DNA from: Alicyclobacillus sp.
GTDB taxonomy: Bacteria > Bacillota > Bacilli > Alicyclobacillales > Alicyclobacillaceae
NCBI GenBank assembly: GCA_023511725.1
Contig: JAIMAY010000001.1
Location: forward strand, 62,001 to 126,000
Direction: 5' to 3'
DNA length: 64,000 bases
Shown: positions 21,022 through 22,640 of the stretch, piece after piece
Layout: each line of letters opens with the position of its first letter
Numbering within the stretch: position 1 is the first letter of the stretch
Position numbers and translations under genes: made by a program
Notes under the pieces: generated by a model
What the model was told of the DNA's origin: nothing
Databases searched by the model: none
What the model saw: only the letters and a program-made list of their open reading frames with translations

Positions 21022-21201
21022 CTACGACGGGCGTTCCACCAGCTCCGCGGCCGGAGCGTTCACTTCAGTGCCATCCTCGTAATGCACCTTGACGTATCCG
21101 GTGCTCTCATACACCTCATCGAGGTGAACCGGTTTTCCGCGGTAGACCACCGGAATGATCTCCGGCGATTCAATGATCTCGCGCGCCCGCTGGACATCCA
21201 T
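21022..21201 (-). CDS. sspH: H-type small acid-soluble spore protein
   Basis: SspH-type proteins are minor small proteins of the spore core, expressed in the forespore. The 59-residue product begins MDVQRAREIIESPEIIPV, the standard start of the family, followed by the YRGKPVHLDEVYE segment and VKVHYEDGTE. ATG 21201 has GGAGGT 9 bases upstream. The open frame runs further upstream through the tRNA-Sec gene without a start of its own, so the short version is correct. A loose forespore-type promoter (GCATA, then CACACTA 18 bases on) can be seen about 60 bases upstream, but I would not rely on it. Confidence 0.88.
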   Translation of the reverse strand: MDVQRAREIIESPEIIPVVYRGKPVHLDEVYESTGYVKVHYEDGTEVNAPAAELVERPS

Positions 21202-21276: not shown

Positions 21277-21373
21277 TGGCGGGAGCGTGTGGGAATCGAA
21301 CCCACCGGCGACATCCCGTGCCGCCCGGCCAGCTTTGAAGGCTGCGGGGGGCACCAGCACCCCTTCCGCCCCC
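21277..21373 (-). tRNA. selC: tRNA-Sec (anticodon TCA)
   Basis: Read on the minus strand this is a 97-base tRNA with an anticodon loop CTTCAAA (anticodon TCA, reading UGA). The acceptor GGGGGCG pairs with CGCTCCC with one G-U pair. The T arm is GTGGG-TTCGATT-CCCAC, and the variable arm is long, seven pairs GGCGGCA/TGTCGCC with one G-U. The 3' end is discriminator G plus an encoded CCA. Length, G discriminator, long variable arm and the CTTCAAA loop all match bacterial selenocysteine tRNA. Two details are imperfect: the eighth acceptor position is G opposite A, and the anticodon stem has four Watson-Crick pairs plus a G-G apposition. A consensus promoter lies 20 bases upstream. Confidence 0.87.
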
Positions 21374-21392: not shown

Positions 21393-21422
21393 ATTATAAC
21401 GCAGGCGGTGTGCGTTGTCCAA
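21393..21422 (-). promoter_or_regulatory. sigma-A promoter of tRNA-Sec
   Basis: On the minus strand TTGGAC (21417-21422) and a perfect TATAAT (21393-21398) are 18 bases apart. Transcription would begin about 13 bases before the first tRNA base. Confidence 0.8.
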
Positions 21423-21453: not shown

Positions 21454-22557
21454 TCATGCGGAACCTTGCAGAAGCGCGAGATAGAGATCCGTGAGTTCGG
21501 GGTCAAACTGGGTGCCTCGGGCGCTGGCGAGATAAGCCCGCGCTTCCGCAACTGGCCACGCGCGCTTGTAGGGACGTGCGTGGGTCAGCGCGTCGTAGAC
21601 GTCGATGATGGCAAACATGCGTGCCAGCAGCGGGATGCTGTCGCCCGCGATACCGTCTGGATACCCGGCGCCGTCCCAGCGCTCATGATGGTGCCGGATC
21701 ACGGACAGGGCGGGATCGTCCACATAGGCGAGTCTCCTGGCGATCTCGTAGCCGTACACCGTGTGCCGCTGCACGAACTCGCGTTCCTCCGGCGTGAGCG
21801 GTCCGGGTTTGCGCAGAATCTGGTCCGGTACGGAGATCTTGCCGATATCGTGCAGATACGCACCCACCGTACCGGATTCTATCAGGTCGGCCTCCAGACC
21901 TTTGGCGTGCATGAACCGGCGCATCGCGCGCACCACGCGTTGTGTATGACCGAAGGTCTCGCCGTCTCGTGACTCGAGGGCGATACCCAGGGCGGCAAGA
22001 CTGTGGAGCTTGGTGGTGTCGGCCCGCATCGCCTCCTGCATCGCCCAGAAATGCCCGGCGAAGCCCGTGGTCAGGACCTCAAGCCAGGTGATGCGGTTGG
22101 CTCTCGGGGGTGTGCACCACGCGCAGACCACACAGCCGTAGCCGCGTCCGCGCGCCATCAGCGGCGTCAGCCACACGGCGTGAAGGCCGCGGGTGGTGAA
22201 GAGCGAGGCCCAAGCGCGATAGCCAGGGGCTTGATGGACGGGCCATGCCCGCGCTGCGTCGCAGGCGGCGGCGTACCAAGCTTGCCCCGTGCCGGCGGCG
22301 AGCAAGGTCTGAATGGGCATCGCCAAATTCCCGATGTCCCTCATGACCTCCACGCGACCCGTGTTGGGCTGAATGAGGCATACAGCCACCGCGTCCGCCG
22401 CCAGTCCGTGCACGAGCGTGTCGGTGAGGAGGCCGAGCGCCTCATCCATCTCGTGACACAGGGAGAACCGTTCCAGCGCACGCTGACACACGGACTGCCA
22501 CCGTGCCTCCCGGCGAAGCCGGTCATCCGTTCCTGCTCTGATCTGGGTATGTTCCAT
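21454..22557 (-). CDS. HD-GYP domain phosphodiesterase with GAF-like sensor
   Basis: HD-GYP proteins hydrolyse cyclic di-GMP. The 367-residue product has an N-terminal GAF-like region (about 20-165; LLTDTLVHGLAADAVAVCLI) and an HD-GYP domain from about 185. The metal and signature motifs are intact: HDIGKISVPDQIL near 232, RHTVYGYEIARRL near 265, HHHERWDGAGYPDG near 288 and DVYDALTHARPYKRAW near 318. No membrane segments are predicted, so it is cytosolic. ATG 22557 has GAGGT 8 bases upstream. It could oppose the GGDEF enzyme encoded at 6336-8483. Confidence 0.9.
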   Translation of the reverse strand: MEHTQIRAGTDDRLRREARWQSVCQRALERFSLCHEMDEALGLLTDTLVHGLAADAVAVCLIQPNTGRVEVMRDIGNLAMPIQTLLAAGTGQAWYAAACDAARAWPVHQAPGYRAWASLFTTRGLHAVWLTPLMARGRGYGCVVCAWCTPPRANRITWLEVLTTGFAGHFWAMQEAMRADTTKLHSLAALGIALESRDGETFGHTQRVVRAMRRFMHAKGLEADLIESGTVGAYLHDIGKISVPDQILRKPGPLTPEEREFVQRHTVYGYEIARRLAYVDDPALSVIRHHHERWDGAGYPDGIAGDSIPLLARMFAIIDVYDALTHARPYKRAWPVAEARAYLASARGTQFDPELTDLYLALLQGSA

Positions 22558-22640
22558 GGTCACCGACCTCACCGAGATCCCGATTCAGTTCGGTGAATTT
22601 CGACAGTGACCCCGGAAATTCCTGCTGCCATCACCGAGTG

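Follow-up and report, generated by a model that had tools for sequence, protein, structure and literature searches.

A 64-kb stretch of bacterial DNA (hereafter the window) carries on its minus strand a gene, selC, which, judging from sequence, very probably specifies a functional selenocysteine (Sec) tRNA of a well-known kind that inserts Sec. The gene is almost certainly working, because the genome contains the remaining parts of the Sec machinery as well as at least two genes dependent on the tRNA. Present in the genome are the tRNA gene with its fold, intact genes for SelA, SelB and SelD, UGA codons at positions where homologues have cysteine, and hairpins downstream of these codons. The gene itself is as follows.

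21277-21373, minus strand: tRNA-Sec gene (selC), 97 nucleotides (nt) including the encoded CCA, with a UCA anticodon (ARAGORN, Rfam RF01852)

The gene is the sole tRNA called by ARAGORN in the window, as tRNA-SeC(tca), and the call bears out what an earlier reading made from the letters alone (the sequence-only reading) had said of its coordinates, its strand, its 97 bases, the TCA anticodon in the loop CTTCAAA, the long variable arm, the discriminator G (G73) and the encoded 3′ CCA. A covariance model for tRNA-Sec, the check proposed by that reading, places the gene clearly within the family: RF01852 matches 21281-21373 over the full model with 64.6 bits (E 7e-11), above the gathering score of 47 bits that marks a tRNA-Sec, while no other match in the genome exceeds 44 bits, which is under this cut-off. 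The eight positions of the acceptor stem comprise seven pairs and a G·A (G8·A, at the acceptor/T junction), the six positions of the D-stem comprise five pairs and one U·C, closed by a 4-nt loop, and the anticodon stem has four pairs and a G·G, with a C·C beneath the G·G. The long variable arm has 7 bp and the T-stem 5 bp. Apart from the G·A, the 8+5 acceptor/T domain is made up of 12 standard pairs, as it is in most relatives. Both imperfections singled out earlier, the G·A at the eighth acceptor position and the G·G in the anticodon stem, are real.

Selenocysteine machinery and UGA-containing genes

The genome to which the window belongs (2.66 Mb, 97.7% complete) encodes SelA, SelB and SelD, as the sequence-only reading had expected, and all three exceed their curated NCBI cut-offs. 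SelA, at C46:135819, scores 566 bits (cut-off 268), and its gene shares the window's contig, at a distance of 52 kb from selC. SelB, at C50:22320, scores 362 bits (cut-off 242) with the full-length model matched, and SelD, at C63:31396, scores 400 bits (cut-off 125) with one in-frame TGA. The nearest named SelA relatives are those of Alicyclobacillus tolerans (54%) and A. ferrooxydans (51%), and the sequence therefore likely represents a member of the Bacilli from the Alicyclobacillus group. These SelA relatives and the spore protein gene beside the tRNA (see next section) fit the earlier assignment to a Bacilli-type genome.

At least one selenoprotein had been predicted, and both selD itself and the gene for a SelW-like protein were found to contain UGA. 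The selD frame reads ...KAG-UGA-GCKIGPGDL, with the UGA at the catalytic position; this catalytic UGA is common to Sec-using relatives, and genome G068, which is without SelA, has cysteine there. The codon is followed by a hairpin, GATAGGTC-CGGGA-GACCTATC. In a whole-genome search with a covariance model of this hairpin, selD scored 59.6 bits and the SelW-like UGA 11.7 bits, the latter at chance level only. Several related genomes have two selD genes, both with UGA. In G020, a complete related genome, selD (C1:4337845-4338774) has the catalytic UGA, and no SelA or tRNA-Sec was found at the thresholds used; either this selD is a stranded selenoprotein gene or sequence is missing.

The second target was revealed by a scan for UGA codons with coding sequence on both sides, which covered selected contigs (~1.09 of the 2.66 Mb, ~41% of the genome); more selenoproteins may be encoded beyond this portion. 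The target, at C16:25264 on the minus strand, reads MAETKVPVRIEYCTS-U-GYLPRAARV... and is Rdx/SelW-like, with a CxxU motif. With cysteine written for Sec, the protein matches PF10262 at 90 bits. Among the 81 genomes compared, members of this family with UGA occur in the present genome and in seven further Sec users, and G012, a genome without SelA or tRNA-Sec, has cysteine instead. A hairpin located 20 nt past the UGA pairs in 8/8 sequences, and three of its five pairs show compensatory changes. The Sec users G015 and G059 additionally carry a cysteine copy of the SelW-like protein.

The sequence-only reading had guessed at a UGA in formate dehydrogenase. This candidate was rejected, as both FdhA homologues of the genome carry cysteine. 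Some Sec users in the sample have a UGA-containing FdhA of ~700 amino acids beside a cysteine FdhA of ~1000 amino acids.

Distribution, stem mismatches and genomic context

The genes selB and selC are established markers of Sec decoding (PMC1273633), and selenoproteins of Bacillales were tabulated already in 2006 (PMC1794560). A tRNA-Sec is present in 38 of the 81 related genomes, 37 of which also have SelA and SelD. Together, tRNA-Sec and SelA occur in 37 of the 81, with four genomes discordant (three with SelA in which no tRNA-Sec was found and one with tRNA-Sec alone; Fisher P 2e-18), and this co-occurrence supports the function of the tRNA. Weak matches of ~50 bits in G011, G046 (its second), G049, G063, G072 and G074 were left out of the tally and rejected as tRNA-Sec; ARAGORN identifies them as tRNA-Ser(UGA). 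The use of Sec was described earlier as sporadic, which holds for the genome's own family, with 13 of 41 genomes; the word does not fit the neighbouring family within its order, most genomes of which have the trait.

The comparison also bears on whether selC might be a relic of a lost Sec pathway, decaying by way of its mismatches. The acceptor stem, D-stem and anticodon stem do contain mismatches, and relics can exist: the 99%-complete genome G028 has a tRNA-Sec (C72, 530-626 of its stretch), although neither SelA nor SelD passed the thresholds there, and this gene, with one variable-arm pair broken, is probably a relic. The mismatch positions of selC, however, are common to relatives that retain the whole pathway. 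Within the class, 34 distinct sequences of tRNA-Sec were compared: 31 lack a pair at acceptor position 8, 30 at position 15/24 of the D-stem and 32 at position 29/46 of the anticodon stem, and the other stem positions show strong covariation. The arms of these sequences contain 110 cells with a compensatory change on both sides, compared with 24 in shuffles, and 0 of 500 shuffles reached the observed value. In an outside set of tRNA-Sec genes, taken near selA in genomes beyond the 81 (mostly Clostridia and Actinobacteria), 14/18 have either G·A or G·G at acceptor position 8 and 18/20 have a pair at position 29/46, so that a lack of pairing at 29/46 is more a peculiarity of the present class. 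According to a review, the anticodon arm is bound by no enzyme of the Sec pathway (PMC7609411), and a mismatch in that arm should therefore be tolerated. The pattern suggests that the mismatches in selC do not point to decay; conserved tRNA-Sec mismatches can be features of a lineage rather than signs of decay. The relic explanation is also opposed by a promoter close to consensus upstream of the gene.

21393-21421, minus strand: sigma-70-like promoter, TGGACA-17-TATAAT, ~20 nt upstream of selC

The promoter matches consensus at 11/12 positions, and one such site was found where shuffles gave a mean of 0.2. As the genome also has intact genes for SelA, SelB and SelD and two intact selenoprotein genes with UGA, we consider it highly improbable that selC is a relic.

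Some observations nevertheless weigh against a working Sec system. Within the sample, the window's selC is the sole gene to combine exactly G·G with C·C beneath; it also has A at alignment column 10, where nearly all others have T, and both features could lower the stability of the tRNA. In addition, the assembly is a draft of 76 contigs, and the sequence of the selD hairpin barely varies across relatives and so provides no covariation support.

The genes on either side of selC are context only, with the first marking an endospore former.

21022-21201, minus strand: small acid-soluble spore protein H family gene (SspH, PF08141), downstream of selC
21454-22569, minus strand: gene for a protein with GAF and HD domains (PF01590, PF13487), upstream of selC

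A search for these flanking genes near the tRNA-Sec genes of relatives gave no match.

Proposed decoding and comparison with known tRNAs

By analogy with the known bacterial pathway, the selC product, as the organism's single Sec tRNA, would be charged with serine by seryl-tRNA synthetase, and the Ser-tRNA would be converted to Sec-tRNA by SelA using selenophosphate made by SelD. SelB would then bring the Sec-tRNA to UGA codons followed by a selenocysteine insertion sequence (SECIS) hairpin, where Sec would be inserted. The predicted UGA targets number at least two in this genome, selD and the gene for the SelW-like (Rdx) thiol oxidoreductase.

A tRNA of this shape might instead act as a UGA suppressor or allo-tRNA, inserting serine, cysteine or tryptophan rather than Sec. 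Indeed, tRNA-Sec-like selC* tRNA-Cys and allo-tRNAs are known (PMC7609411), and a DsbB-like gene of this genome (at C69:42206, in the stretch C69:42125-42559) has an in-frame UGA where relatives have tryptophan. This UGA was rejected as a Sec codon, since the relatives, including one that is 92% identical, have TGG there. It lies one base away from TGG and not at a cysteine position, in what looks like a pseudogene, and is likely a nonsense mutation. The DsbB-like gene adjoins apparent conjugation genes. The tRNA itself also argues against a suppressor or allo-tRNA: its anticodon is UCA, SelA and SelB are present, the discriminator is G and not the U73 of selC* tRNA-Cys, a criterion taken from the same review (PMC7609411), and its D-stem, with six positions and a 4-nt loop, has the form recognised by SelA (PMC7609411). 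We therefore give insertion of another amino acid hardly any credence.

A working tRNA-Sec adds a well-supported Sec user to the Alicyclobacillus group; a search of the open literature, with most subscription journals outside it, found no papers on selenoproteins in this group. Annotation would gain as well, as gene callers would truncate the selD and SelW-like genes at UGA. We also entertain, as a speculation that is more doubtful than probable, that the lineage has a tRNA-Sec whose lower anticodon stem is weakened (only four pairs of the standard kind in selC), together with a small SelD/SelW-like selenoproteome, with no Sec formate dehydrogenase found, and that Sec decoding may serve redox defence and not formate oxidation.

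The window's selC is a new example of an already known type of tRNA-Sec. It resembles the bacterial tRNA-Sec of RF01852 in length, UCA anticodon, long variable arm, 8+5 domain, G73, CCA and the form of its D-stem. It departs from that family in having G·A as the eighth pair of the acceptor stem, U·C within the D-stem and no pairing in the lower part of the anticodon stem; mismatches at these positions are common in relatives. With the tRNA-Sec of Alicyclobacillus-related Bacilli it shares nearly the same fold, most of the sequence and the same three mismatch positions, and it differs from them in the A that replaces T at alignment column 10.
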